A stretch of 64,000 nt of DNA, from positions 372,001 through 436,000 of the forward strand of contig JAHLTZ010000016.1 in NCBI GenBank assembly GCA_025786725.1, in the 5' to 3' direction. Under the pieces are notes generated by a model. That model saw only the letters and a list, made by a program, of their open reading frames with translations, had not been told where the DNA came from and ran no database searches. The DNA is from Syncephalis fuscata (lineage: Eukaryota > Zoopagomycota > Zoopagomycetes > Zoopagales > Piptocephalidaceae). Shown here one piece after another: positions 2,637 through 64,000 of this stretch; the first letter of the stretch is position 1; each line of letters begins with the position of its first letter. A program made the position numbers and the translations under genes.

Positions 2637-5130
2637 ATGCGTTCAATCAACTTTATATTATCATGCGGCCTCGCCATAATGCTAAAAACTCTTATAAACA
2701 ATAGAATCGTGCACGCTGGTATATTGCCAGAAAGCGAAAACGAAATCGACTTCAACTCTTCAACTATTGTACCAACCGAAAATGGAATTATTCGCGGATT
2801 GGCCACAAATGATCGTATGGTAGAAAGAACTGTTAAAAAAGTACTTGGTCTAGGCAAAAAGACAATTGAAGAAGAAAATAAATTACCACGGAAATTTATT
2901 GGGTAACTATATAACAACTATTGGCTATGTAGTGTACATCTAATAGCACTCACTTTCTAATGTAACTATGTAGAATTCCTTTTGCTGCGCCACCTATTGG
3001 GGAGAACAGATTTAAAAAGCCACAGCCACTAAAAAGCTGGGGCGGTATTGACCAATCGGGCAAGCCATTTGGACCAGTTTATGATGCCACTAAAGTTACA
3101 AAGGCATGCGTTCAACTAATGCCAGTTCTACTACAAGGCGAAGACTGTCTTCATCTTGACATTTACACGCCACCTATGAATAAAATACGCGAACTTGGCG
3201 GTCGGCTTTCGGTTATGGTGTGGATTTTCCCTGGTAAATTAATGAAGCTTTATTATAGCAGGTTTAGACTAACATTCAATAAATTAGGTGGATTCTTCTT
3301 TAGTAACAAAAATATGTTTGATATGTACGATGGTGCCTATCTTGCACAGACCAAAAATACAATTATCGTTTCAATTAATCACCGTTTGGGACCATTTGGA
3401 TTTATCGTATGTATTTTACTATTGAAAACTACTATTAGATGAATTAACTCATGCACCAACTATAGAGTGCAGATGGTGCTGATAAAAACGTTGGATTATT
3501 TGATCAACGGGCAGCTTTGGAGTGGATTTCACGAAACATTGCACGGTAAGCTATATTTGATTAGCAAACACGCATATTAAATTAAACTTTGCAAAACTGC
3601 ATTACCTTTATATTAATACTGTCATTTCTAGATTTGGCGGTAATCCTAATGATATCACCATTCTTGGAGAAAGCTCTGGAGCATATTCAGTATTGGCACA
3701 TATGGTATCACCGACCACACCGCCCAATCTCTTTCATAAGGCTATAGTTATGAGTTCACCTACATCTATCAATCTGCGCAAAGATGAAAGTCTGGCCGCT
3801 AGTACTCTAACTCTGGCAAAGAAAGCAAACTGTGTTGATGCTACAAATAAAACCGACATTAAATGTCTACGTGAACGTTCTTGGGCCACCATTCTTAAGG
3901 GCCACGGCAATATGCTTGTCACAGAGGAAACTAATGTATTGGTACTATCAGACCAATTTAAGGTAATATTACTATGTAGTATTAATGCCAGCAATAGATT
4001 ACTAATGCCATTAATCCTTAAGTGGTGGGCCAGTTTAGACAACGACTTTTTTGTTGAGGAAGTCTACGATAGCTTTATTAAAGGCAGCTTTCTTAAGGTT
4101 CCATTGCTTATTGGTTTAGCAAAGTAAGAAAGCTTTATTTTATTAACATTTTACTAATATCTGTGCACTATTCAGAGACGATGCAGGTTTTTTTGCAGAT
4201 TTTTATGGCAATCGTGTAACAGGTAAATTTACCGGTCTATCAAGCGACTTTACTACACAAGGATTTGCCGATCGTTTAGATCGCGCATTTCAAGATAAAC
4301 TTGCTAATGTAAACAATTATACTTGCTATCCTATTGATTATTAATAATGCATTATATCCAGGTGACCGAATACTATCCGCTGCCTACCAACGACACTGAG
4401 ACAGTGGCACGATTCTCCGATCTCATTACCGACATGCTATTCCGTTGCCCAATCAAAACAGTATGTTAAATACTAGCCAACAACGATATAATACTTATTA
4501 CGATAATTATTATTATTCAGATTTCTGATGCAATCATTAAGCATAATAGTACCGTTTATACATATGAATTAGCACAAGACCCACCACGTCCCTACAAACT
4601 AACAGGTTTTTGCCGTAACCATACGTGCCATACCTCCGATCTGCTGTATCTATGGTCACGCGGAGCAACACTATTCGACCGAGTGGTAAGCTAGATAATC
4701 TATTATTATACTATTGACTACAGTATACTAATGTCTATACAATGTATTCCAAAAGACGCTTAATTCTAAACAACGCCAACTGGCTGGCCAGCTGCAAACG
4801 TATTGGACCAACTTTGCTGCTAGCGGTAAGTTCTATGAAAACCTGTTTTGACTCGGCGCCATTGCTTATCGGCTAGTTATAGGTGATCCGAACCGTCAAA
4901 CTACATCGGATAATAAGCATTACAATAGTACCGAGACCGATTCATTGCCCATATGGCCGCCAAGTAAACTAGGCGAACACAAGCACCAAGAACTAAATGA
5001 CAAAGTACAATTTGTCACCAATTCTCGTGAACGCTATTGTGATTTATGGGTAAGTTGTTAAAATGTCTGTTATCCCTATTAATGTTTTAACACTAATGGT
5101 GACTAGGATACCATTGGTTATAATTTTTAA
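2637..5130 (+). CDS. Secreted carboxylesterase B
   Basis: A type-B carboxylesterase, probably secreted: it starts with a hydrophobic stretch (about residues 4-20) after MRSIN. Exons are 2637-2902, 2974-3233, 3288-3406, 3466-3545, 3632-3962, 4023-4123, 4176-4308, 4362-4461, 4521-4685, 4756-4825, 4883-5049 and 5107-5130 (TAA). Motifs: GIPFAAPPIGENRF, GEDCLHLDIYTP, canonical elbow GESSGA, acid region KDDAGFF and catalytic-histidine loop CHTSDL. The paired cysteines expected of the family are present. The gene lies 540 bp downstream of esterase A in the same orientation and shares its intron pattern, with extra introns inside the region that is one long exon in A. Ester substrate and function (nutrition, detoxification or lipid turnover) cannot be told from sequence. 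Confidence 0.93.
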
Positions 5131-6305: not shown

Positions 6306-9093
6306 ATGAGATTCTGCAATCGATGTGGCGATCCAGTTAGTGGTCCCAGATGCAAGTGTGGAGGTACACCCAAAGGTAAGTTGTCTGCCACCAACGCAGT
6401 TACTGCTGTCGGAGCGGTTATGTCCAAAATGAACACTCAGCTGACTAGAAACTGTAATTATCTACAATGTAGAGGCTGAAGGAAGTGGTGGTGGTGAAGG
6501 TGTAACCACACTACGCCGCGACGTATGGTCCAGAAAGTGAGTATTTACTATGTTGACTAATAAGCCATATTAATAGTAAATGTTAGATATTTAACCAAGG
6601 GATTGGATCAACCAGTAGTAGGTCGACCCCGTTCCTCGTCGGTCAGCGATCCATCTACACCAAAATGTCCTGATTGTGGTCTACGTTTATCGCCAGTAAG
6701 TCAGTATTTATTAATAATAAGTTAATATTAATTGTTTATTAGACTGTGGATGGTGGTATGGCGTGTAGAGTATGTATTCTAAAACCTTCTAGTAAAGGTA
6801 TTTGGTAAGTTCGATTTAAATATAACAATCTAGTATCCAATATTTAATGTCTGATATCTAATCTATTTATTATTACAGTGCAGCATGTGAAAAGCCCGTT
6901 ATTCCACTAGCTGTACCGGGACAGACAGCCACTTGGGTAGAATATGGCACAAAAGTATGGCATAAGGTAATTTCTATAGTTATTAATTGTTCCAAGCTAA
7001 CTATTTAAATGTAGGATTGTTTTCGATGTCGAATATGCCGTGTAAGACTAACTAATCCCATGGTGGATTTAACCGGCCAGCCATGCTGTGAAGACTGTCT
7101 TATGGCCCAAGCAGGTGCACGTACACCAATGGATGAAGTGACACTAGAAACAGCTACTAGTGTGCCACCATCTACTTATAACAACAATAGTCGCCAACAA
7201 TCAAGTGCTTTATCCGATGGTTCTACGCTAATCAAGTCTACAGAGTCACTGGTAGAAGATAAATCACCTAAAAACCCCACATCTGCTTTCAGTGTCACTA
7301 ACAATGTGACTGGCGCAACACCTGTAACCGTGGCAGCAGTGACTGCTGTTACTGCTATACCCAAAGAAGCTTCATTGGTACCAGAGAAAAAGAAAGCTAT
7401 ATCTTCTCCTAAAGCATCACCTAAAATAGGACCATCGGAATTTGAATGTAGTGCGTGCAAACTGCCCATTACTGATGCTGGTGTACGATTGCCTAGTGGT
7501 CGATTATACCATCCACACTGCTTTACTTGTGCCGAGTGTGGCAAAGAGTTTAAACAAAGTGCATTTGTTAATTATGGTGGACGGGCTTATCATCCAGATG
7601 TAAGTTATTACAAACACGGCTTTGAATGGCATTAAATGGTGCAAGCACTTACAAATATCATTGCAATTCAGTGTACACCCAAGGCGAACGTAGAGCGGTG
7701 CAACGACTGTGGCAAGTTAATATCTGGATTTTATGTAAAAAACAATGGTGCTAGTTATCATGCCGAGGTAATATTATTAATGCGTATTTAACCAGGCTAT
7801 AGTGATTAATCTATTGATAAACATCAGTGTTTCAAATGTTCAGGATGTAAAACGGTTATTGGTCCTAAAACACCGTTTGGTGAGATTTCAGACCAGCCTT
7901 ATTGTGAGGCATGTTTAAAGGCTCGAATTACTGGCGATTTGTATCTGCCGCCGCCTATCGATTCACCATCAATGGTCAATACTACGACAACAAGAAGAGG
8001 GTCAAATGACAGAGGTGAACAAAGCAGTAATACGTCATTTGGCGTGCCAGATGCCAGTTTAATTCAACTGGATCCTTCAATGGCCCAAGATATTGGACAT
8101 GAGCCTCAATGGCATAGCACAACTAAGGTAGCAGTTACATCGCCAGTATTGGCAGCTGCAGCGGATAAAGAACCTAAAAGCACACCAGTACCTAAACCAT
8201 CATCGCCGGTATTGGCAACTGCAGCAGATAAAGAATTTAAAAGCAATCCAGTGCTTAAATCATCACCGCCACCTAGTTCTGCATCAACTTCGCCTAAAAT
8301 TGCGCCTATTCCGGTTAATGCTGCTATTGGGCGAGCCATGGGACGTTCCCAATTGTCTCCTTCTCCCTCTTCTCCGCCGAAAAATGGACGTATAGGTGTA
8401 ATCAGCACAGCGGCCGAATTGGCGTTTTCTGAAGGCGTGATGGGCGGTGCTAGAGCTATATCGCATGCACGGTCACGTAGTGCTGCATCGCCGCTTCCAC
8501 GGCCCAACACACAATCACCGACGCTATCTACTACGCCGGTTATTGCGCCAACACCGGCCAGTAATGGCTTTACTTCTGGTACATCAACGCCATACGCTTC
8601 TAGACCTGTCAGTCCACGACTACGATTTGAAGAGTCTCTCCTATCACCTAACGCGTCTAATGAGATTGCCTTGTCGCGGTCAAGTTCACGATCAAGCAAC
8701 ACGTCAGGCTGGGAGCCACGTGTGCCGCCACTTTATAACGGATCTACACCTACTACAAATAATGGATTTGTAGGTAGATCGGTAGGTACGCCCACCACCA
8801 CTACATTTGCACCATATAGCAACCAAAACGGCAATAGCGGTGGCGGTGTCGGGACCGGGTCAAGATTTTCTCAATTGGGCGGCACGGCACGCTGCTTCAA
8901 ATGCCAGGAACGATTATATGCCTCGGAAGAGGTGCCAGGCCCACGGGCCACTAAATGGCATCGTCATTGTTTGGTTTGTTTAGTATGTCGCAAACCACTC
9001 GACAGTATGGCACTGATGCGTGACGACACTGATGGGCCATACTGTCGCATGTGCTACATTAAAAAGGGCCGACGAGTTACTGCTCTCATGTAA
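6306..9093 (+). CDS. LIM-domain protein, 779 aa, four LIM domains
   Basis: A cytoplasmic or cytoskeletal adaptor made of zinc-binding LIM modules. Exons 6306-6375, 6473-6536, 6587-6695, 6743-6804, 6879-6966, 7015-7599, 7672-7767 and 7828-9093 sum to 780 codons. The N-terminus starts with short cysteine clusters (FCNRCG, RCKCGG, then CPDCG and CRVC). LIM1 is at about residues 129-190 (CAACEK to CCEDC), LIM2 at about 274-325 (FECSACK, CAECG), LIM3 at about 327-390 (CNDCG, CSGCK) and LIM4 at the C-terminus, about 718-775 (CFKCQ, CLVCRK, CRMC). A Ser/Pro/Ala/Thr-rich linker of about 320 residues separates LIM3 and LIM4, with two near-repeats of an SPVLA-AADKE motif. Zinc-ligand spacing is intact in all four. 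Fungal LIM proteins of this layout usually act in polarity or actin organisation; that role is inference. Confidence 0.93.
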
Positions 9094-18422: not shown

Positions 18423-19892
18423 ATAGCAACAACGATAATAGGATGGTGGGTCAGCAAGTATAATTTTTGTATTTTTGGTTTTATTAACCGTTATTATTAT
18501 TTACTATTATTAATTGTCTCAATGACCGTATTTTTATTTGTTATAAATAAATCAATTTTGTATAATTTAGTGTATTAATTAATTGGATCATAATAATAAT
18601 ATTATTATTTATAATTGATTGGGTAAAATGAAAAGTGTGCTGATCGACGTTGTCCCATAATCAGCCATTTACTTTTCGGTAGTCAGCGTGTTACGGTGTT
18701 GACGACTGACTTTTGCTCCCCATCTTTATGCAGGGGTATACCTTTACCAGTGAAGTGACAACTGAGGTGAGGTTATTGCTGATTGAAAACTGCAACCAAT
18801 ACCCCGTCTTGACGACCTTCTGGGTCGGCAAGCAATTTTTGCCAGGTTCGTTTAGAACCTTATTATCAATAATAATAAACCAAACCAAACTAAATATCAT
18901 TAACAAATAATGGTTCTAATTTCTTTGTTTAAAAGTATTTATCCTGAAAGTAAAATAATATGGATACAAACAGCAATATTAGCTTTTTATTTTAATTTAT
19001 ACAGCAAGGCAGGTGTAGAAGCGGCAATTAAACAAAAAACAAATAGACTAAGACAAAAGAGTCAACGCCTATGATATGGCAGTTCTAGTCCTATAAAATA
19101 ATTATTTAGTGTTAGCTGTTTATGCCACTGCTAAACAATTGGTGATAACAAGATACACAGCTATTTGTATCATATAGTCATTGCTTACAAAATACATAAT
19201 TTAGTAAAACGTACTAGCACGTTGATTTTAGAAATAGCGTGCGTTTAAGATGTATATTGATAAAAGATATATAGCCATCACAGCTATTGCGCTGATAGTT
19301 GTACACATACGGCAGTATCGGCGTCGTATGAATTGCTTTACTACGCTGTGATTTTTTAGTGCTCATACTAGCGGTGTAACCTGCTATCAGCAATACAATA
19401 TAAACCAAACCATTTATTAGATTTCTGGACAACATATATAAGGTATATAAAGATAGTTGATGAATAAACATTTTATTTTAAAGGAAAGAGACATGTAGCG
19501 TAAATTATTAACTAGCAATTGACAAGCAGTGTTTATAACGATGTAATGTATAGCTATTATTATAGAAGAAATATTAAAAAAACAGCAAATAAAAGCAGTC
19601 TATACAAGTTCAGTGTGGCATAAATATATTATCACTATTCTGATATTATGTCTATATTGCTATAATAACATGATTAAGAAATACAAAATGTAGGTGGACA
19701 ATCTGTTAAGAGCACAACTAAACAGTATATTAAATTGAAATGTGTATACAAAACTCAAACTATTTTACAAGTAACTATGTTGAAATACTCGACTTTGATG
19801 TGCTCTATCTACAATTTAATGCGTCATCCTGTATAATTCAAAGGCCTCTTTTTTCACAATTAAATATTCTCCTTGTTTAGTTTATTTCTATC
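18423..19892. other. Intergenic, APSES to F-box gene
   Basis: About 1.5 kb of AT-rich DNA. AATAAA signals near 18546-18552 probably serve the APSES gene. Overlapping short open frames on both strands at about 18691-18910 and 19214-19471 have no recognisable family and no convincing start context. Nothing else seen. Confidence 0.55.
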
Positions 19893-25109: not shown

Positions 25110-27152
25110 ATGGTGGCTCTTAATGAGCAGAAGCTAGGCTGTACGTGTATTATAAAGTATATCTTGTAATTTCATACCTTGTGGGTGCTTGTATGCCTTT
25201 CGTCGTGCATTCGCTCTCTCTCTTGTACTCTCATTTTCCTATTTCCATGTCCTGATTTTCGTTTTGTGTTGCGATTCTTCTATTCAATATTATTATATCA
25301 ACATCACCACCATCATGTCCCTTCACCTTCATCTTCGCTAAGAATCATGTGCAATTTGCCTTGCTTCTATACCTTACGTTATCTTTTGTTTAATAAAAAC
25401 TAAATGATAACAGCTCTACAATTAAATCTGTATATCTATTGCTGACTAAGAATTATTTTATAATGTGCAGCGCATGCACGAATAGCTCCGAAATATTCCG
25501 ACTTGCATATGCAGTGTTTTTCAAAACAATTAATTCGATTCAACAATACATGCGGTTTAATCCGATAGTTGTAATGTTACTTTATTTTTGTTTGCATATA
25601 AATTTTATCTAGCTATTTAATTTGTAGTACAATATCATCATGCTATTTCTTTTATTATTCAAACAAATACAAAACATTTTTTGCAAACATGTTGCAATTT
25701 GTTACATTCAATATACTTACATCTATACTATTTTTTTCACCAATAACATTAATAGCTTAGCCGATTATTCCATTTATTCCTGTTAATTTATTACACTAAT
25801 AAATGTTTATCGTGTGTCATTTCATTTCTAACATTTAATTTTAAAGTACTTGGATTTGGGTTTATTAAATACATTAATCGCACATCATATTGTGCGTCAT
25901 TTAACATTTACAATGATTTAATATGATTTGGGCCAAATGACTACATTTAATAACATTCTATGACATATTGAATACATTCTATTGTTTATATGTTCCAATA
26001 TACTTCACTCAGTCTACTCATTGCATTATACACGCTATAACTTTAACATCGTTTTATATGCTTTCTTATCGTACATTTATTATTTCATACATCATTATAT
26101 ACTTGCATAGTCTTCCTCTATCCAAAGCTATTATTATTTTTGTTCCAACTTTATTATTAATAAATGTTGGCTAATGTCAGTCATTTGATCACGCATATAT
26201 GCTCAATCAACTTTGACATAGCTAATCGCCATTATATACTGCATATTCATTATATTGTATATCATTTTATTATCTAGTAAATATGTGCTAGTTATTGAAA
26301 ATGGTTTTTTGTTCTAGCTTTATTATTAATAGATCTCAACTCATTCATTTCATTCATTCAATAAGCTATATGTAATTGAAACTTATAACAATATAATGTA
26401 TTCAATATAGCATAAAATGATATATGATAGTATAGACATACATTGTTAATGATATACGTGAATAGAGGATATATGCATGCTAGATAATGAATCTACGATG
26501 ATGAATATTTTAAGCTTTAATGCCACTCAACACCCATCAGCATCATGCTCAATAGATTGAATGTCCAGTTCAATTGCGCAAATGTTCTTAAATATAGTCA
26601 TTTGACCACCAAATCACAGTATAATTAAATAAGCAAGATAATTATTATCCTAGATTTATTATCCTGCACGCATGCATCTTCTATCCATCCAATCGTTCCT
26701 ATTTTATATCCATATTATTCTTTTATCACATAAACATTGTATAAAAACAAACAACATCCAAGTACAGCAGCTTCTAATACGTAACATAATTGCTACGCGA
26801 CACTCTAATTATCAAATACTGCATTGTCGCTAGACGGACTTTCGTAGAAACTTTTACACGAGGTCGGTTGAGTCAACACAATATATTATATTCATATACA
26901 GATGATTATAAATGTTGCTATTTAATTAAATAAATATATTTCTCTCCTTGTATCTCATCCTGACTCATATATATCTTTCACTCACGCGTACACACTTCAT
27001 TTACTCGTCACCGCACTCTTGGTACTACAGTCGCTAGTGCTGAACCACGTCTTTTATTGCATTATTCACGTCTACGCTCTTGGTTGTGTTTGTTATTGTG
27101 TAGTTTTGTTTGGATTTCATTCATAAGACTGCATAGATCGATTGTAGACAAT
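25110..27152. other. Intergenic with dispersed repeat
   Basis: About 2 kb, very AT-rich. It contains copy 1 of a 548-bp repeat (listed separately) plus, downstream at about 26310-26600, sequence similar but diverged from about 38900-39130, so the repeat family is longer than the identical core. An ACGCGT lies at about 26986 in the AFG3 promoter. No gene called. Confidence 0.6.
25644..26191. repeat. 548-bp dispersed repeat, copy 1
   Basis: Appears identical to 38295-38842 at a constant offset of 12651 bp, with no gap that I can see. Both copies hold the same 68-codon open frame (25968-26174), which I do not consider a gene. No terminal inverted repeat or target duplication is evident. A third, strongly diverged relative lies at about 55240-55740. 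Confidence 0.9.
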
Positions 27153-37735: not shown

Positions 37736-39395
37736 TGGATAATTGGGTTGATCTATATTGTTATCAAATAACCAAAATGCGAATATAGCAGATTATTGGA
37801 AATTGTAATGCTAAAACGAATTGCTACTAGATAGCATATGATTGTGTATGAGTTGTATTGTACATAATTCAAGCAAAAAAAATGCGATGCTTATATAGGA
37901 TCAACAGTCTCAATATTACTCCTGGTAGTTGGAAAATAAGCCGATTATTTACAAACAGGTCGTACCTCGACCATTTTACAACAAAATCTTGGTAGCTTAT
38001 GTCCATAAAGTCCTTGATTTTTATAATATAGAGGCCTATTTTTTATATCAAACAGCTTCACTCATCAAGTGTTTCATCTATTGCATTAAGAATTGTTTTA
38101 GCCACGTTTATAAATGTGCTGTTTGCAGAGTGGATAACAACAAGTAGGTATATATCTTGTATACGCCCTAATCAAGGCCTTGATTAGAAATAAAAAGATA
38201 TTATTGTAGTGAATTATAGTATTTCCATAAAATAAAGGCAAGAATTATATAATTTATAACTAATATGGTAACAATTGCAGTATATTGCTGCTGTTATTTC
38301 TTTTATTATTCAAACAAATACAAAACATTTTTTGCAAACATGTTGCAATTTGTTACATTCAATATACTTACATCTATACTATTTTTTTCACCAATAACAT
38401 TAATAGCTTAGCCGATTATTCCATTTATTCCTGTTAATTTATTACACTAATAAATGTTTATCGTGTGTCATTTCATTTCTAACATTTAATTTTAAAGTAC
38501 TTGGATTTGGGTTTATTAAATACATTAATCGCACATCATATTGTGCGTCATTTAACATTTACAATGATTTAATATGATTTGGGCCAAATGACTACATTTA
38601 ATAACATTCTATGACATATTGAATACATTCTATTGTTTATATGTTCCAATATACTTCACTCAGTCTACTCATTGCATTATACACGCTATAACTTTAACAT
38701 CGTTTTATATGCTTTCTTATCGTACATTTATTATTTCATACATCATTATATACTTGCATAGTCTTCCTCTATCCAAAGCTATTATTATTTTTGTTCCAAC
38801 TTTATTATTAATAAATGTTGGCTAATGTCAGTCATTTGATCATGCATATACACACTATAAGCCCAATACTGTTAATTGTATATAGTTCTATTATAACGAC
38901 TGCATAATATTAAACTGTTGTCAATTTAAATTTAGCTTTTATTATAAACTTTATTTTATAAGTGTACAATGATAATGATATAATTGGATAAAGGATGTAT
39001 GCATACTGGATAATAAATCTATGATGCTGTGTATTTGGATTATAGATGTCACTTACCACCCACCATCATGTTCAGTGGAACGGATTTGTGGTTCAACTAC
39101 GCGAATGTTGTTAATGTTAGCAGTTAATTCCCAAATTACATCAAGTTGCTTAATATAAATTTAATGATATTGACAAAAATAAACAAATTGATTTATTATT
39201 TACTGAATAGTGTGAGTATAGCTTTATTAAATGCAGCTGAAATATATTACTATTTGCAAAATATTGCTATAATAAGTGTATGCAATTATACTAATTAACG
39301 AAAACCATATTTATTCAAACCATTGATTTAAAGCTATAGAGATAAAGAGAGGGATGGCATCGCTTGTCTCTAATACCAATCATTACAATTAGTAA
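37736..39395. other. Intergenic with dispersed repeat
   Basis: Promoter of the subtilisin gene and 3' flank of the C2-EMAP gene. It contains copy 2 of the 548-bp repeat (separate entry) and a diverged continuation to about 39130. No gene called. Confidence 0.6.
38295..38842. repeat. 548-bp dispersed repeat, copy 2
   Basis: Appears identical to 25644-26191, same orientation, and carries the same 68-codon open frame (38619-38825). Perfect identity over AT-rich noncoding DNA means recent duplication or ongoing gene conversion. Confidence 0.9.
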
Positions 39396-42100
39396 TTAAG
39401 CTTTGGGTACAATTTTCCATTGGAGCAACGTGCCGTCAAGACCACCGACGGACACGGCCCATTGATTGTCGGCAGTAAAACCAACGGCTGTTACATGAGA
39501 AGCATGGCCACGGTATTTCTGGCTGGGCATCTTCTCTTGGTAGCATGGATAGGTGTGCAAACCAACTTGACTAAAGTCATTACCGCTAATAAGCAAGTTG
39601 CGATCGGCATTACGGGAAACGGCATTGATATCACGGCCGTGCATGCCTGGCTCCCAAATACCAACAGTTGGCCAAGCCATGGTTAACTCAAAGCTTTCCC
39701 AGTCGGTATCACTCATATCGGATGATTTGGTAATTTGTTCGCAAGAAGGAATGGACCAGAAAAGCAGTTCGTGTTCCATGCTATTTGTTTGCAAATACTT
39801 GCTATCCGCTGACCAATCTAGATGAATGACATGGCTTGAATGGCCACTGCACACACCAACCAATTTCCAGTTCGATGTATCATAGACACCAACGCCATTG
39901 TCGTCCTTGACCCCGCCTACTGCTAGATACTTGCCGTCGGGCGAGTATTTTAGCGGATGTTCAACGTCAGTTGAGCGGCCACCTTCCTCATGAAGCTCGC
40001 GTTGTGGAATTAATTGGTTTGCTTCAACAATAAATACATGGTCAGAAGTTGCACCAATAGCTACTTGATTACCAGATGGATGGTAGGCACAAGTACGTAG
40101 TGGACGGTCAAGCTGCAAACTAATCATTGGGTGGCGGTTCTCCAAATCCCAGCGAATAACACGCATATCTTCTGATACGGTAATACATTCAGGTGCTTCT
40201 GGATGCATGGCAAGGCCCCATACTTCAGCGTTATTCACCGTGCTATGTGCTTCAACTAGACGACGAGCCTCAGCATTGCCTTCGTTGGCTAGAATAGCAT
40301 CCATGCCACGGAGGACCATTATACTCGAGTCATCGTAGCCAATAGCCACTTGATTGCCATCCCAGCTAATGGCCCGAATAGCCGTATTGCTGCTAGTGTC
40401 ATGGTAGGCCACACGTGGCTTAGCTCCGGCCACGTGCAGTACAAGACGACCATCTTTACCACCGGTCAAGATGCCAACACCAGCTCTAGCAGCTGTGGCA
40501 AATACTGAGCCTTCATGAGCCTTTTCGGCTACGCTAATAACCTTATGGGAGTCTAGGCTCCAGGTGTAGATGTCACCGTTGTGGCAGCCAGTAACAACCG
40601 TCTTATCGTCGACAAAGGTTGCACTAAGCAGTGGCTGGATCTCACCAAGCTTGCCGAATATACCTTTACGTGCATCAAGCGTGTTGGCCACTGGATCGTA
40701 GGTCCAAAACTTGATATGCTTCACACCAACTGTAATAAATGTATGTGGATCCGTTGGATGGAATACAAGTTCTAGTACCTTGTCGGAATGGCCAGGAACA
40801 CTGCACAATGGCTCACCACCCTTGCGCCAGTCAAAGATCGACACCTATACGAATATTAGTAGGTAATTAACAGCAAGTTGTTTACTTACCATATGAGTAC
40901 TGTCAGAGCCAACGGCAGCAATATACTTGCCCTCGCCAGCTGAGAAAGCCATAGAAACAACACCAGCCATATTAGGCACACAGGTCAGCGAGGCAACAGT
41001 CTCGCCAGGCTTCTCAACTTCCCAGACCTTAATGAACACTTGCTTGTTATTGTTGTTGTAGACAGTGGCCTGATCACCCGTAGCAACGTATTTGTTGGAT
41101 GGATCAGTGGCCAATGATAGAATTTCAGCTGATTCATGGCCTTGGTAAATCGTTTGGCTATTACGAGCCATACTATGCACAATACCGAGCGAGGCTGTGT
41201 GGTAGATGACATTGTTGGTGCTTGTGATCAAACGAACATTGTTACGACAGTTACGTGCCCGGTAGCCATAGGCATGGGATAGCTGAAGTTCAGCTGCTGG
41301 TTCAGCCTTGACCGAAGTTGGATCAAAGGTTGATGGAGGGAAAATGGCACCAGCCCATGGACGTACAGCCTGTTGAAGCATAAATATAAATGACGTTATT
41401 AATGATGTTATTAAAACTTACACTAAAGTTTACTCCAGCTGCATAAGCTTCTCCTTTAAGCTTTTCTAATAAAATAATAGACTATTAGTATCAATTAATT
41501 TCATATTACCACTTAGCCTACCTGGTGATTCATGAGTCAATTTTAATGAAATACGAATATCGCCCTATTAACATTATTGTGTTAATATAACAATGCATTG
41601 TTATTGCTATATCCACTTACACTGCCACCATTTAATGGATACCATTCATCTTTCTCTTCGTCAATTTTAAGAGAGGAGAGATCAATAGACAAGTTGCCAA
41701 GAAAGTCGTCTGGTAGACCATAGTCATAATCGTAGACTTGAATATCCAGCTAATTGTATAGCTTGTAAGTATAAAGCGTTATTGTATAGCTATACGAGTC
41801 TTACCTCTTGCCCTTCAATATCGTCACCTGGCAAACGGAAGGCCTCGTTCCAACGTGGATCCAAAGAACGCTTGATGATACGGGAACGATGGTGACGTTT
41901 ACCAAGTCGGCAAACAACATATGGATCCGATGCACCTATCAATAATATAGACATGTTAGCATTGCTGTTCACTAAAAAGTCATAATAGTAATGGCACCAG
42001 CATACTTACCAGTGTCTTCGTCACGTGCATCTAAACTACGCGCCTCGTGCAATTTAACATGCAACTGAAGAGGTAGCTTTGACGAGTCATTAATGGTCAT
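39396..42100 (-). CDS. C2 domain fused to EMAP-like (HELP + WD40) protein, 788 aa
   Basis: Exons on the minus strand are 42100-42010, 41935-41805, 41749-41621, 41564-41522, 41465-41422, 41369-40890 and 40844-39396; they sum to exactly 789 codons. Residues 1 to about 135 are a C2 domain (LPLQLHVKLHEARSLDA, SDPYVVCRLGK, LDPRWNEAFRLP, DYDYGLPDDFLGNLSIDL, GDIRISLKL). Then comes PWAGAIFPP, the HELP motif (LSHAYGYRARNCRNNV) and a double WD40 propeller typical of EMAP-like (EML) microtubule proteins, ending MHGRDINAVSRNAD, GHASHVTAVGF and LLQWKIV. EML proteins bind microtubules; C2 domains bind membranes or protein partners, often with calcium. The joining introns keep frame with good signals. The alternative is two genes, with the second starting at Met 41381. 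Confidence 0.88.
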
Positions 42101-57706: not shown

Positions 57707-60700
57707 ATGAAGCTTTCTATTGCCGCCGTTTGCACCATTGTCGTGGCTATCATGGCCAGTACAGCCATGGTAGATGCTAAACCAGCCTTAGTTCGCCGTG
57801 GTGGTATGTTGCAATAACAATAAATATACCATAATATTTTGTTTACTAACAGTATTTCTAACTAATGATTATAATAGCCAGTAGGTTGTATTATATACTA
57901 CTTGACTATAAATTAACTATATTATTGATTGATTGTACCGTTTATTTAATATTAATAGAGGGTAAGTTGTACTATATATTGCTTAACTATACATTAACTA
58001 TGTGCCATATACTGTATCTATCAACAATTTGATATTGATAGAATGTAAGTTGTATTGTATATCAATTGATTACTTACTAATTATATACTATGTACTGCGT
58101 GCATCAATGACTTAATACTAATAGGCAGTAAGTGATATTGTATATTGATGATATAAATTAATCATACTATGTATCGTGTGTATCAACAACTCAATGACAT
58201 AGATGGTAAAGTGTATCGTGTATTAAATGACTATGAACTAATTTTATACCATGCACCGTGTATATTAACAACTTGATACTAATAGCATGTAAGTTATATT
58301 GCATATCACTTGATAATTGCCTAATCATATATTATGTGTTGTATGTATCAATAACTTCATACTAATAGGCAGTAAGTAGCATTGTATGTGCTGATTTATA
58401 AATTAATTATGTGTCATGCACTGTGTGTATCAATAATTTGATGAAATAGTGGGCAAGTAATATTGCATATTAACTGACTATGCACTAATTATATACTGTG
58501 TACTGTGTGTGTATCGACAATTCAATGCAATAGCTAGTAAGTAGCATTGTATATTAACTAATTACTCACTAATTATATCCATGTACTGTGTGCATCAATA
58601 AATATTAATAGAATGTAAGTAGCATTGTATATTAATCGACTATACACTAATCACATGCTATTTACTGATTGAACTGATTATTTAATATTAACAGGCAGTA
58701 AGTTGTATTGTATATTAATGAACTATACATTAACTATACTATTTACTGATTGAAATGATGTTTAATATTAATAGAGAGTATGTTGTATTGTATATTAACT
58801 GATTACTCACTAATCATATGCGATTTATTAATTGTACTTATTGTTTAATCTTAATAGGCGGTAAGTTGTATTGTATATTAACTAACTATAAGCTAACAAT
58901 AATATGTGCTAATTGTGCTAACTATTTAATATTAATAGACAGTAAGTGGCATTTTGTGTTAATTAGCTATACATTAACTGCTATTTGCTGATTGTATTAA
59001 TTATTAATATCAATAGACAGTAAGTAGTATTGTATATTGACTGAATATACATTAACTATAATATTTACTGATGATATTAATTATTTAATATTAATAGTTT
59101 GTAAGTGATATTGTGTATTAATTAACTACATTAGCTATGTTATTTACTAATTGTACTAATTATTTAATATTAATAGTTAGTAAGTGGTATTGTGTATTAC
59201 TTGACTATACACTAATCACATGCTATTTATTGATTGTACCAATTATTTAATATTAATAGGATGTAAGTTGTATTGTATATTAATTGGCTGCATTAACTAT
59301 GCTATTTACTGATTGTATCGATTATTTAATATTAATAGATGGTAAGTTGTATTGTGTACTAATTAATTACTCACTAATCACGTGCTATTTATTGATTGTA
59401 CTTATTGTTTGATATTAATAGGCGGTAAGTTGTATTTTATAATAATTAATTATACATTGACTATACTATTTATTGACGGTACCAATTATTTAATATTGAT
59501 AGAGGGTAAGTGGTATTGTATACCAATGAACTATACACTAATTATATGCTGTTTGTTGATTGTACTGATTATTTAATATTAACAGGCCGTAAGTTGTATT
59601 GTATATTAATTGACTATACATTAATTATTTATTTATGATTGAAATGATGTTTAATATTAATAGGCGGTAAGTAATATTGCATATTAGTTAACAATATATT
59701 AACTATGCTATTTATTGATTGCACCGATTATTTGTTATTAATAGTTGGTAAGTTGTATTGTATATTAACTAACTATAAGCTAACAATAATATTTACTAAT
59801 TATGCTAATTATTTAATATTAATAGACAGTAAGTGGCATTTTGTGTTAATTAGCTATACATTAACTGCTATTTGCTGATTGTATTAATTATTAATATCAA
59901 TAGACAGTAAGTAGTATTGTATATTGACTGAATATACATTAACTATAATATTTACTGATGATATTAATTATTTAATATTAATAGTTTGTAAGTTGTATTG
60001 CGTATTAACTGATTATACATTAACTATATTATTTGCTAATTGTACCAACTGTTTAATATTAATAGGCGTAAGTAGTATTGTATATCAATGAACTATACAC
60101 TAACAATAATATTTACTAATTGTACTAATTATTTAATATTAATAGGCCGTAAGTTGTATTGTGTATTAACTAACTATACATTAACAATACTATTTAATGA
60201 TTGTACCGATTATTTGATATTAATAGAAGGTAAGTGGTATTGTGTATTAACTAACTATACATTAACAATACTATTTAATGATTGTACCAATTATTTAATA
60301 TTGATAGGGGGTAAGTGGTATTGTATATTAATGAACTATACACTAACAATGATATTTACTGATTGTACCGATTATTTAATATTGATAGATGGTAAGTGAC
60401 AGTGTGCATTAACTAACTATACATTAGCAATAATATTTACTGATTGTACCGATTATTTAATATTAATAGGCAGTAAGTTGTATTGTATATTAATAAACTA
60501 TACACTAACAATGATATTTATTTATTGCATCGATTATTTAATATTAACAGTTTGTAAGTTATATTTTATATTAGTTGTTTATATATTGACTATGCTATTA
60601 CTAATTGTACCGATTATTTAATAACAATAGCGAGTAAGTTGTATTGTATATTAATCCTACTATTTACTGATTATACTAATTATTTAATATTAATAGCCTG

Positions 60701-61260
60701 TAAGTTTATTGTATATTAGTTGATATACATTAACTATGTTATTCACTGATTGTATTAATTATTTAATATTAATAGTTTGTAAGTGACATTGTATATTAAC
60801 TGACTATACATTAACTATGTTATTTACTAATTGTGCTGATTGTTTAATATTAATAGGCAGTAAGTTTTATTTTATATTAATTAACTATACATTAACTATA
60901 CTATTTACTAATTGTACTGATTGTTTAATATTAATAGGCAGTAAGTTTTATTTTATATTAATTAACTATACATTAACTATACTATTTACTGATTGTACTG
61001 CTTATTTATTATTAATAGGCAGTAAGTTTTATTTTATATTAATTAACTATACACTAATCACATGCTATTTATTGATTATACCAATTATTTAATATTAATA
61101 GAATGTAAGTTGTATTTTATATTAATTGGCTGCATTAACTATGCTATTTACTAATTGTACTAATTATTTATTATTAATAGGCAGTAAGTAGCATTGTGCA
61201 TTGATGGCTTATACATTAATTATATGGCATATAATATCTTTATTCGTAAATACAGCATAA
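57707..61260 (+). CDS. Secreted Cys-rich peptide encoded by 42 one-codon microexons
   Basis: Exon 1 (57707-57803) encodes a signal peptide (MKLSIAAVCTIVVAIMAST, cleavage probably after VDA) and KPALVRRG, ending in phase 1 before GTATGT. Then come 42 microexons, 41 of 3 nt and one of 2 nt (60066-60067). Each follows an AG acceptor and precedes a donor: GTAAGT in 38, GTAGGT, GTAAAG, GCAAGT and GTATGT in one each. The last acceptor (TACAG, ending 61255) gives CA then stop TAA 61258-61260. If the 2-nt unit is read as 3 nt, phase 1 is open throughout: about 75 residues with six cysteines in the mature part, spaced C-x2-C-x3-C-x16-C-x9-C-x3-C. Skipping that unit gives one residue fewer in the same frame. 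Taken literally it shifts frame, leaves four cysteines and runs to TGA 61352-61354. Function unknown; a secreted effector, antimicrobial or signalling peptide are all possible. Confidence 0.72.
57804..61255 (+). repeat. Tandem array of about 81-bp intron + microexon units
   Basis: Microexon starts: 57878, 57959, 58042, 58125, 58203, 58286, 58369, 58450, 58534, 58612, 58695, 58775, 58858, 58939, 59017, 59098, 59177, 59260, 59339, 59422, 59503, 59586, 59664, 59745, 59826, 59904, 59985, 60066, 60146, 60227, 60308, 60389, 60470, 60551, 60631, 60697, 60776, 60857, 60938, 61019, 61102, 61181. Spacing is 78-84 bp, with one 66. Each unit reads donor, TTGTATTGTATATTAA-like, CTATACATTAACTA-like, then TGATTGTACTAATTATTTAA-like with a branch site, then TATTAATAG. 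Triplet contents: GCA 8, ACA 4, TTT 4, AAT 3, ATG 3, GCG 3, AGG 2, GCC 2, twelve others once each, and one 2-nt GC. Flanks are conserved while the triplets vary. Open frames seen across the array are by-products of the near multiple-of-3 period. Confidence 0.95.
58861..59106 (+). repeat. Three-unit block duplicated within the array
   Basis: This block, with microexons ACA, ACA, TTT, is nearly identical to 59748-59993 at an offset of 887 bp, much closer than neighbouring units are to each other. It shows the array grows or rearranges by duplication of several units at once. Confidence 0.85.
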
Positions 61261-62942
61261 TCAATGGTTTCAAGACATTAGCATTGGTGGTGCAATCAAG
61301 CCACTATTCCAATACACTTTAGGTATATATTCGGTGAAAAGCAAGACCATTTGACAACTACGCCGTCCTGTCTATCCATATATCAAGTTTTGGCCAATGC
61401 TCCGGTTTATCCAGTCTTTAATTAATGGAATCATTATTTTATCAACAAACTTGCATATAGCTGTTCCTATTCAGCTGTCCAAGTTTATAGTAATAAACTT
61501 ATGGTTTCATCTTAACTGTATACAATCAAATTGCTATATCTATAACCATGTTCTATTTGCATCCAATAATGGCAATTATTGATCGAATAGTTAAATTAAC
61601 AAAAGACATGTACAATTATATTGTATTAGCCATAAGCATAGGATGGTATGAATATGGTAATGTTAAATGTGAATATTGTAGTAATGTATATTAGCAATAA
61701 AGTTGACTGTGCTTAGTTGTAAATATACCATGGGTAGTAACAAATCTATCACTATCATATGATGAAATGATGTTGTACTGATATTGATATAAAAATAATT
61801 TTTGATTGTTAACAACCTAGCACTACATTGTGACAGCTAGCAACTTAATGGCTACCGTCTTGTTTACGCTTACTTCTATCACCTAAGCACTAGCGACTAC
61901 TAATTAATCGCTTATATTAATATAACATGAACCTGATGCTATTATAAAATAAGCAATAAATAATTCTTCTTTTAATTATTGATTACCACAGTTAAGCTTT
62001 TCACAACTAAATAACATTTGTAACTAAAGCAGAGAAAAGAATATAGAACCAAAGATATAGATATGTTTATTATAATGCCAATAAAGCTAGTGTTTTATAG
62101 TAAATACTGTTGTTAATAGAATTTAAACTTTGTCCATATGGTTGATCATATGTCAGTAAATAACAAGTATCTACTGGTTATGTCCCTGTATAAATGTTTA
62201 TGATTGTTAGTACTAGTATTTAATATATTCCTGTTGCGGCTATTTATATGTTATCGTTAGCATGCTGTTCAATTACATGGTAGATGTCATGGATCAATCG
62301 CATGGTGAATAATCATGGCCATAATACCGTAATTCAATACCGTAATGACATGCTGCTATTTTTATTGTCAAGTAAATTAAACAGATAACTGACGTTATAG
62401 CAATAAAACTGATATCTGATTAGTACAATATCTAATATTGGATTACTACGCATTTACACATAGTATAAACTATATATTTTATAGTAAAAATGGTGTCGAT
62501 ACTACTTTACTATTTACTTTAGCTGTATATGCTTTTATGAAACAAACGGCTGATATAAATGATTTTGAACACGCATTTCAATTTAATAAATAAATATTTC
62601 CTTTTCTCCTGTTTAATAATTTAAAACAGCATGAAATCATTACTTATGATATTTAACTATATGAATTCTCATTTTAGCTGGTCAACGACCTCATGGGTAA
62701 ACATTTGTTGACAATATCCTCCACTATTGTCTAATTTTTCCTTATTCATTTACCCTCTCCTCAATACTCCCCTTGTACAATCTAAAACATAACAGTATGT
62801 GTGCATTGTGCAGTTTTATTAAATGCTATGCATAATATTTTTTGTTTTCATGCGTTACTTTCGTTTAGCACTATCGTTCTAGCTGTATCATCAATAGTTG
62901 GATTGTTGCTAAACTCAGTCTAAAATGGTATGACGGTAATAG
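61261..62942. other. 3' flank of microexon gene
   Basis: About 1.7 kb of AT-rich DNA before the promoter repeat returns. It includes a 32-codon extension open from the last acceptor to TGA 61352-61354, and an isolated exon-like element at 62678-62696 (CTCATTTTAG acceptor, 19 nt, GTAA donor). No other gene seen. Confidence 0.5.
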
Positions 62943-64000
62943 TTTGCTATAAGCCAAATCAGTAAGTCCTTGAGGTACCAATTATTTTTCATTGGTTTTT
63001 TGCTTTAGTTTGTTTTTTTGTATTCTATCTTGCTTAATTTGTCAAAAGTGGTTTCAGAAATGTGGGCAGAACTTAGGCCTTAGATGATTACCGGCTGATA
63101 TGCAATCCACAGCCACTATGCATTCGAAATTACTGGTAATTGTTTAATGCTTTCTATTGGGTCTAGCTAGTGTCTGCATATTGCATTGCGTGTAGTTTAG
63201 CCGATGCAATTTAGTCTACACCTGAAAACTGGTGACGAAAATGACCTGTTGGAATGTTTCATTGCTCAAATGCTGTGATGCATCACCCTACAAATAGTAC
63301 TTATTGTATAGTCAATTGCAAATAATTTAGATGAGCCGCCATTTAAATGATGGTAGTTGCGCAGCATGTAGTATGGTATGCCTGGATGTGATGCATTGTG
63401 AATTCAAAGCAATAATTACCCCCCCCCCATAACAATGGGCATAGTGTCGAATGAAATGTATACATGTGCCAATCAACACACTTTATAATTTAAAAATTAT
63501 GGCTGGCCTATGTATGGCAATAAAACCTGTATAAAATACCAATTTGATATATTAAACTTGTTTTTGCATCAGTGTTGCGTGCTATTCTGTATGCAACAGA
63601 TATTGAGGACTAAATCGGTAGAAATGGCAGCAAAGACTTCATTATCGTTTTTACCAAATAGTTAAATCGTGTAACAAAAAATTCAGGCTAATATGCCTAT
63701 TTTTATCCCATAGTACTGGATTACGAACATTGTTACACCATTCGTGTAAATAACTAGCAGATTGAAGTAAAGACCGGGCAAGTTAAAATCAGGACCAAAC
63801 AGGTTAAAACCAAGGCTGAGATACATATTATTACGCCATGAATCTATTGGTACATGTGCACCTCAACCACTGTTTGGATTGTTTTATTGGTTCATATTAC
63901 ACATCAATGGTATATATCGTATACTACAGTATACTAGCATTTCAACAAGATTATAAGTTTAAATAGCCCACAAAATATACACAACCAACTGCAATATCAT
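62943..64000. repeat. Promoter-side direct repeat, copy 2 (cut by window end)
   Basis: Matches 56549-57604 apart from a longer C run (10 C at about 63419-63428). The window ends about 100 bp before the position of the start codon in copy 1, so a second microexon gene probably begins just outside. Confidence 0.93.

Follow-up and report, generated by a model that had tools for sequence, protein, structure and literature searches.

Putative coding of small secreted cysteine-rich peptides by arrays of consecutive 3-nt exons in the fungus Syncephalis fuscata

Schistosome micro-exon genes (MEGs) build secreted variable proteins from many short in-frame exons of ∼6–36 nt, and their introns are not known to form a tandem repeat. 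The exons of the aphid bicycle genes are small, yet are not known to be of one codon each; the encoded proteins carry CYC motifs, and the likeness to them that is drawn here is one of architecture alone. The bicycle family, as described, is large and evolves fast; its putative effector genes have very many small internal exons, nearly all of them starting at codon position 2, and one conserved related gene has more than 100 microexons (PMC9168663). Among single tiny exons, Arabidopsis APC11 has one of 1 nt, for which intron definition and recursive splicing with successive removal of two introns were proposed (PMC4674806), and Drosophila homothorax has one of 3 bp (PMC7392893). Ratchet points of recursive splicing, as described, are intronic sites where an acceptor and a donor stand together and the intron is removed stepwise (PMC8605326). 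Here we describe a gene that starts at position 57707 of a 64,000-nt stretch (the window) on contig C68 of the 28.95-Mb genome assembly of Syncephalis fuscata (Zoopagomycota, Piptocephalidaceae), together with its relatives elsewhere in that genome, which are given as L-numbers. Behind its exon 1 lies a tandem array of splice-site pairs. With a probability of roughly 0.92 we read this array as the coding part of a gene whose product would be a small, cysteine-rich secreted peptide, with its mature residues carried on 3-nt exons.

A sequence-only reading of the window had reported 42 consecutive units, in each of which an AG acceptor is followed by 3 nt (once by 2 nt) and then by a donor, GTAAGT in 38 of the 42, and our own count confirmed this (Table 1). 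Forty-one units hold 3 nt and one holds 2 nt; the units are spaced by 66–84 nt, most commonly by 81 nt, the other four donors are GTAGGT, GTAAAG, GCAAGT and GTATGT, and the final acceptor ends at 61255. The pattern AATAG-N(k)-GTAAGT was counted over the whole genome on both strands, with the same pattern read backwards as a control. For k = 3 it was found at 3183 places (1400 + 1783) versus 28 (11 + 17) in the control, while counts for k = 2 (59 versus 58) and k = 4 (54 versus 50) stay at control level, which places frame-breaking exon lengths at background; k = 6 shows a slight excess (38 versus 19). Pairs of strict 3-nt units lying 55–80 nt apart number 1827 genome-wide and zero in the control.

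A chain search that allowed exon lengths of 0–12 nt without preference was applied to ten array stretches, two of them near duplicates. It returned 3 nt for 246 of 258 units, the remainder being of 2 nt (2 units), 6 nt (3), 7 nt (4), 9 nt (1) and 10 nt (2). At the 7- and 10-nt calls a weaker donor is present 3 nt after the acceptor, and these six units (one in L011, two in L012, two in L030 and one in L037) were reset by hand to 3 nt. The longest array among those read, L030, has 49 units. For intron properties we took 228 introns of eight arrays, keeping lengths of 55–95 nt. They measure 63–90 nt (median 78 nt) at a GC content of 24%; GTAAGT opens 188 of them and GCAAGT 10, and TAATAG closes 167. 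Their GT or GC donors and AG acceptors are those of spliceosomal GT–AG introns, AG and G[TC] holding by construction, since a donor and acceptor model was used to find the set. Pattern listings alone point to further arrays with different-looking introns at C2:519736-522460, from C2:537396 onward and at C19:3371-8207 (including the C19 repeat).

Exon 1 of the window gene stops one base into the next codon, that is, in phase 1. The first-intron donor motif GTATGTTGCAAT occurs at 116 places in the genome versus 1 in the reversed control. When the first 100 of these places were set against 150 exon-1 matches, 50 donors did not lie behind a listed match, and in 50 of the 50 genes where a listed donor does stand directly behind one, exon-1 length leaves a remainder of 1 on division by 3: 30 of these exons are 94 nt long, one of them after correction for a match that starts at residue 2, and 20 are 97 nt long. 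Exon 1 is in phase 1 in 10 of the 10 array stretches read as well. With exon 1 in phase 1, each triplet supplies positions 2 and 3 of one codon and then position 1 of the next. The idea of one codon-sized insert per unit thus stands in that each 3 nt adds one residue, but the triplets themselves straddle codons. Phase-1 reading yields cysteine-rich peptides, for example ERYRFCNMDPFSCGLACNNPSRGGDNGHQICTDCTYSECMEKCKTYCEK for the 49 units of L030 and AGPECDACITKCLESVCQSDRNPYCHLYNREFCRISQRKCQSVC for the tandem copy of the window gene. Read in phase 0, none of the seven sets yields a cysteine, and phase 2 gives 0–3 cysteines, with stops in all five sets that exceed six units.

Our data further show that stop codons are avoided across the introns. 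Among the 1827 pairs the first triplet ends in T in 567 and the second begins with AA or AG in 236, from which 73.2 cross-intron TAA or TAG codons are expected (TGA was left out); 4 are observed, an 18-fold depletion. Unit order was shuffled in a pool of L030, L012, L009, the first 27 window units, L037 and L027. The pool leaves out the interrupted L011, the near duplicates L013 and L014 (where the chain search also missed a 15-nt exon and a GAG unit), L026 as an incompletely read close copy of L030, and the window units after the 27th. Its 180 intron-spanning codons contain no stop versus 8.4 after shuffling and 31 cysteines versus 16.5 (sd 2.9), and none of 20000 shuffles matched the stop count or the cysteine count. 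For single arrays the cysteine test gives modest results (P = 0.008–0.16 in the five longer sets).

Several relatives carry the family exon 1 followed directly, without introns, by a short and mostly cysteine-rich peptide. Spliced in silico, the L037 array reads GACKCQDEDGNCTSC across 16 microexons, and the intronless L025 reads GACKCRDDDGYCTSC; the two peptides match with a score of 79 versus a maximum of 45 in 500 shuffles, 37 of 45 bases are identical, and the third codon position accounts for 6 of the 8 differences. The L014 array, in which one exon of 15 nt stands among the 3-nt exons, reads RRAVAPLAKR versus RRAVEPLAKR in the intronless L033, 27 of 31 bases being identical across the exon joints. 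For L012 and L009, compared with a CxxCxxxC group of intronless genes, 0 of 500 shuffles were as good, in L009 narrowly (51 versus 50); the matches of L030 and L014, taken singly, are only suggestive. The gene ends also correspond. Where the end of an array could be read, the last exon contributes 2 nt and a TAA (window gene, its copy, L013 and L014) or the stop arises at the last joint (L012 and, by eye, L030). Most intronless genes read end in TAA, in a sequence context that matches the opening of the last exon in array genes. Exon-1 phase, stop avoidance and cysteine enrichment across introns, and the intronless paralogs all support the initial proposal, in which splicing of the array yields a peptide.

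Comparison of the window gene with its next tandem copy indicates where the arrays change. The two agree at 99.7% of 1166 upstream bases and at 98.3% of 414 downstream bases, while the arrays are ∼81% identical. Within the arrays, the triplets agree at 43.2% (125 aligned bases), intron interiors at 83.8% (2802 bases) and AG plus GTAAGT at 98.2% (330 bases), as the sequence-only reading had it when it called the 3 nt hypervariable and the splice signals conserved. A neutral satellite would vary over the whole unit and carry indels of any size; in these arrays variation is concentrated in the triplets and 2- and 4-nt units are at background genome-wide, and the earlier rejection of such a satellite holds. 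A block of units was duplicated inside the window array, as the introns after units 14 and 25, and after units 15 and 26, are identical. L011 and L012 have flanks ∼97% identical and arrays that differ by whole units. Together these comparisons suggest that the peptide changes fast and in whole-residue steps, with the splice signals retained.

The family is large. Genome-wide, exon 1 has at least 150 relatives (scoring covered 150 of 330 candidates and gave 150 matches). Of these, 64 have the family 3' motif within 6 kb when the first 100 of 162 motif places are considered, and the distance from exon 1 to the motif is 255–287 bases in 5 and 1050–5077 bases in 59, with none between. All five short-distance loci were read and are intronless; seven of the 59 long-distance loci were read (the window gene, its copy, L011, L012, L013, L014 and L030), and all are arrays. 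Probably more than fifty such array genes are present in one genome. A protein search with a 71-aa intronless member returned five annotated relatives, all from Syncephalis fuscata, under length and word limits that may hide more; one of them, P0003, is the same protein as the intronless L033 on C1. None of eight family peptides (3 spliced arrays, 5 intronless) reached a Pfam gathering score, the best match being a weak one of a single peptide to PF01826 TIL (15.6 bits versus a threshold of 24.5).

Some features of individual members may be recorded here. Array pairs on opposite strands lie at C1:475k/C1:532k (L011, L012) and C1:575k/C1:610k (L013, L014), and L013 and L014 have the same 13 triplets. 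A PLAKR (dibasic) site follows RR in L033, L029 and L014, that is, in both intronless and array forms. L011 carries at 7518-7924 an insertion of ∼407 bp in an array intron, with the direct repeat AGTAATATTGTATATTA on both sides; one end has poly-T, and a B-box-like GGTTTGAACC lies close to the opposite end. It looks like a reverse-oriented tRNA-derived short interspersed element, and ARAGORN found no tRNA in it.

The layout of the window gene is collected in Table 1. The units before the 28th hold the family phase, and the peptide that they would encode begins AKECNACMAKC, resembling AQECEDCVHIC of an intronless relative. If unit 28, with its 2 nt, is included, all that follows is read in another phase, and whether the TAA of the last exon is in frame hinges on the same unit; in silico joining covered the first 27 units. 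Elsewhere in the window we noticed a U4 spliceosomal RNA gene (18722-18858, + strand), a 559-bp segment present twice (25641-26199 and 38292-38850, 99.6% identity) and, on the minus strand at 39396-40844, a protein carrying both EML-type (echinoderm microtubule-associated protein) beta-propellers.

Table 1. Array gene of the window and adjoining features (window coordinates)
Feature	Position	Strand	Description
Exon 1	57707..57803	+	97 nt; predicted signal peptide and pro-region MKLSIAAVCTIVVAIMASTAMVDAKPALVRRG with dibasic RR
Intron 1	57804..57877	+	74 nt; donor GTATGT, differing from array donors
Microexon array, 42 units	57878..61183	+	homologous introns of ∼78 nt (GTAAGT...AATAG) between units; putative mature-peptide coding part
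Units 14-15 and their following introns	58942..59097	+	first copy of internal duplication; introns 14 and 15 identical to 25 and 26
Introns after units 25 and 26	59829..59984	+	second copy of internal duplication
2-nt unit (unit 28)	60066..60067	+	AATAG GC GTAAGT; if included, shifts phase downstream
Last-exon start	61256..61260	+	two bases and TAA; context as at the stop codon of most intronless paralogs read
Conserved family 3' motif	61318..61334	+	TTTAGGTATATATTCGG; 162 genome places versus 2 in reversed control, 1 mismatch allowed
Upstream region of next tandem copy	62943..64000	+	near-identical to the region preceding exon 1 of the window gene

We can picture the expression of such a gene as follows. 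Exon 1 would supply a signal peptide, recognized by eye, and a dibasic cleavage site; because exon 1 carries the signal sequence and has the RR at its end, the array would encode the mature part. Dozens of 3-nt exons would follow between short introns of one family, the phase-1 introns splitting each array codon after its first base and every exon adding one residue, and the stop codon would come from the last exon or from its joint with the array. The introns would be removed one after another by ordinary intron-defined splicing, each event making the short exon the end of a growing one. A 3-nt exon would leave no room for exon signals, and a donor 3 nt behind an acceptor is hardly usable before the upstream intron is excised, which makes sequential removal the likeliest route; a model of the same kind was proposed for the 1-nt exon of Arabidopsis (PMC4674806). 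Units would be gained, lost and swapped by recombination, so that the peptide is lengthened or altered and the frame is kept.

Several observations weigh against reading the arrays as peptide-coding, or limit how far that reading reaches. Three nucleotides are the rule and not a law: besides the 6-nt excess, exons of 15 nt (L014), 9 nt (L037) and 6 nt (L009 and L012) occur, and the notion of consecutive 3-nt exons in series has to be widened to a large family with some longer exons. In L014 the positions of the 15-nt exon and of one GAG unit were chosen by eye, and one of the hand-set units falls among the 16 of the L037–L025 match. Shuffles reached the score of the paralog match in 23 of 500 cases for L030, 14 of 500 for L014 and 29 of 500 for the first 27 window units. 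The window array on its own is weak (cysteine P = 0.16); this copy may be damaged, its unit 28 may be unused, or the 2-nt unit may be a sequencing error. The L011 array is interrupted by its insertion, and the intronless L020 reads past the common TAA. The nominal Poisson P of 2e–26 for the missing cross-intron stops is too small, because arrays are duplicated in the genome and the pairs are not independent. Phase 0 is likewise open in L030, L009, L037 and the first 27 window units, so that openness alone cannot fix the phase; stop-free reading was dropped as a phase test for this reason. It should also be noted that the joined-sequence tests rest on few arrays and the genome-wide tests on counts.

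The same observations have to be set against other explanations. The array could lie within a single long intron as a satellite-like repeat, with exon 1 joined to the last exon and the internal sites serving as decoys or as recursive-splicing points that leave nothing behind. The array is indeed a tandem repeat with a period of ∼81 nt, its adjacent AG and GT resemble ratchet points, and exon 1 of the window gene joined to the last exon hits a stop at once in phase 1; but this leaves unexplained why 3-nt units number 3183 when those of 2 and 4 nt stay at background, why cross-intron stops are missing, and how the order of the cysteines and intronless paralogs with the same peptide arose, and we find this account scarcely credible. 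Nearly as improbable, in our judgement, is that one-codon exons were spliced in an ancestor and that most array genes are now decaying relics, the intronless genes being the living members. The 2-nt unit of the window copy, the insertion in L011 and the 4 stop joints fit decay. Against it, 2- and 4-nt units are at background, 4 TAA/TAG joints are seen where 73 are expected, and splice sites are 98% identical between tandem copies where triplets are 43% identical; by these three measures constraint appears to be maintained in most arrays.

A different possibility accepts the splicing of the triplets but sees the product in a set of isoforms, made by skipping units in varying combinations, and not in the full-length peptide alone. 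Skipping a single unit keeps the frame and creates a stop for only 2 of 49 units in L030, 2 of 34 in L012, 2 of 42 in L009 and 3 of 28 in L037. In-frame skipping, however, needs no selection where exons are 3 nt long, stop-free arrays in shuffled order give similar values (0.049–0.097 per skip), and the cysteine patterns of the arrays match full-length intronless paralogs, so that we regard an isoform device as unlikely; alternative splicing as a purpose is not separable from alternative splicing as a side effect.

Many array and intronless genes have flanks in common. Aligned with the window gene, 7 of 10 intronless genes match over 461–626 bases before the start codon, and L023, L025 and L031 over only 76–239 bases; past the 3' motif, which L025 lacks, nine of the ten match over 196–905 bases, and L020, L022 and L031 match an array gene there over 621–905 bases. 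Simple retroposition to new sites fits poorly with such common flanks. Introns could also have entered an intronless gene codon by codon, although this would take many separate phase-1 insertions. We prefer the order in which the array came first and introns were then lost through cDNA, the intronless paralogs being derived from spliced mRNA.

Syncephalis species parasitise other fungi. As the predicted peptides are secreted, cysteine-rich and fast-changing and belong to a fungus that attacks fungi, we infer that they may act as effectors or antifungal toxins against fungal hosts. More tentatively, and at somewhat less than even odds, the intron satellite might be viewed as a codon-by-codon writing system in which residues, each on its own 3-nt exon of the same phase, are duplicated, deleted, converted between genes or skipped in splicing without loss of frame, a diversity generator of probably more than 50 genes in an arms race between fungi.

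If confirmed by RNA, such genes would represent the limit case of the split gene, with an intron in nearly every codon of the mature part, dozens of them in series, and in a large family. They would test the minimum size of exons in series and whether splicing must run in order, and they offer a means to study the evolution of coding sequence in which every residue is a separate recombination unit. Genes of this kind are easily missed, as seen from five annotated relatives versus at least 150 exon-1 matches, and similar genes elsewhere may be hidden.

To our knowledge no gene organisation this extreme has been described, and we know of neither bicycle genes nor MEGs with runs of one-codon exons or with tandem-repeat introns. 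By its predicted signal peptide in exon 1 and many in-frame microexons of one phase, the array gene would take its place among microexon-rich secreted gene families. It differs from the MEGs in that its exons are not of several codons: 246 of 258 units are of 3 nt, and 6-nt units number 38 versus 19 in the control. With the bicycle genes it shares internal exons that start at codon position 2, given here by the phase-1 introns; tandem homologous introns are not mentioned for them in the part of that report available to us, and the organisms are different (PMC9168663). The exons of APC11 and homothorax, as reported, indicate that 1–3 nt can be spliced in as an exon (PMC4674806, PMC7392893), but these are single exons in ordinary genes and not dozens that form a mature peptide. 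Ratchet points leave no coding bases, unlike the arrays, in which 3 nt would be kept at each step. Neither microexons of Syncephalis nor 3-nt exon arrays were the subject of any report among the matches listed in a search of titles and abstract openings with partial coverage of open-licence PMC articles. This, with the differences from bicycle genes and MEGs, leads us to call the architecture apparently new in kind; its parts (short introns, tiny exons and secreted variable peptides) are each known.

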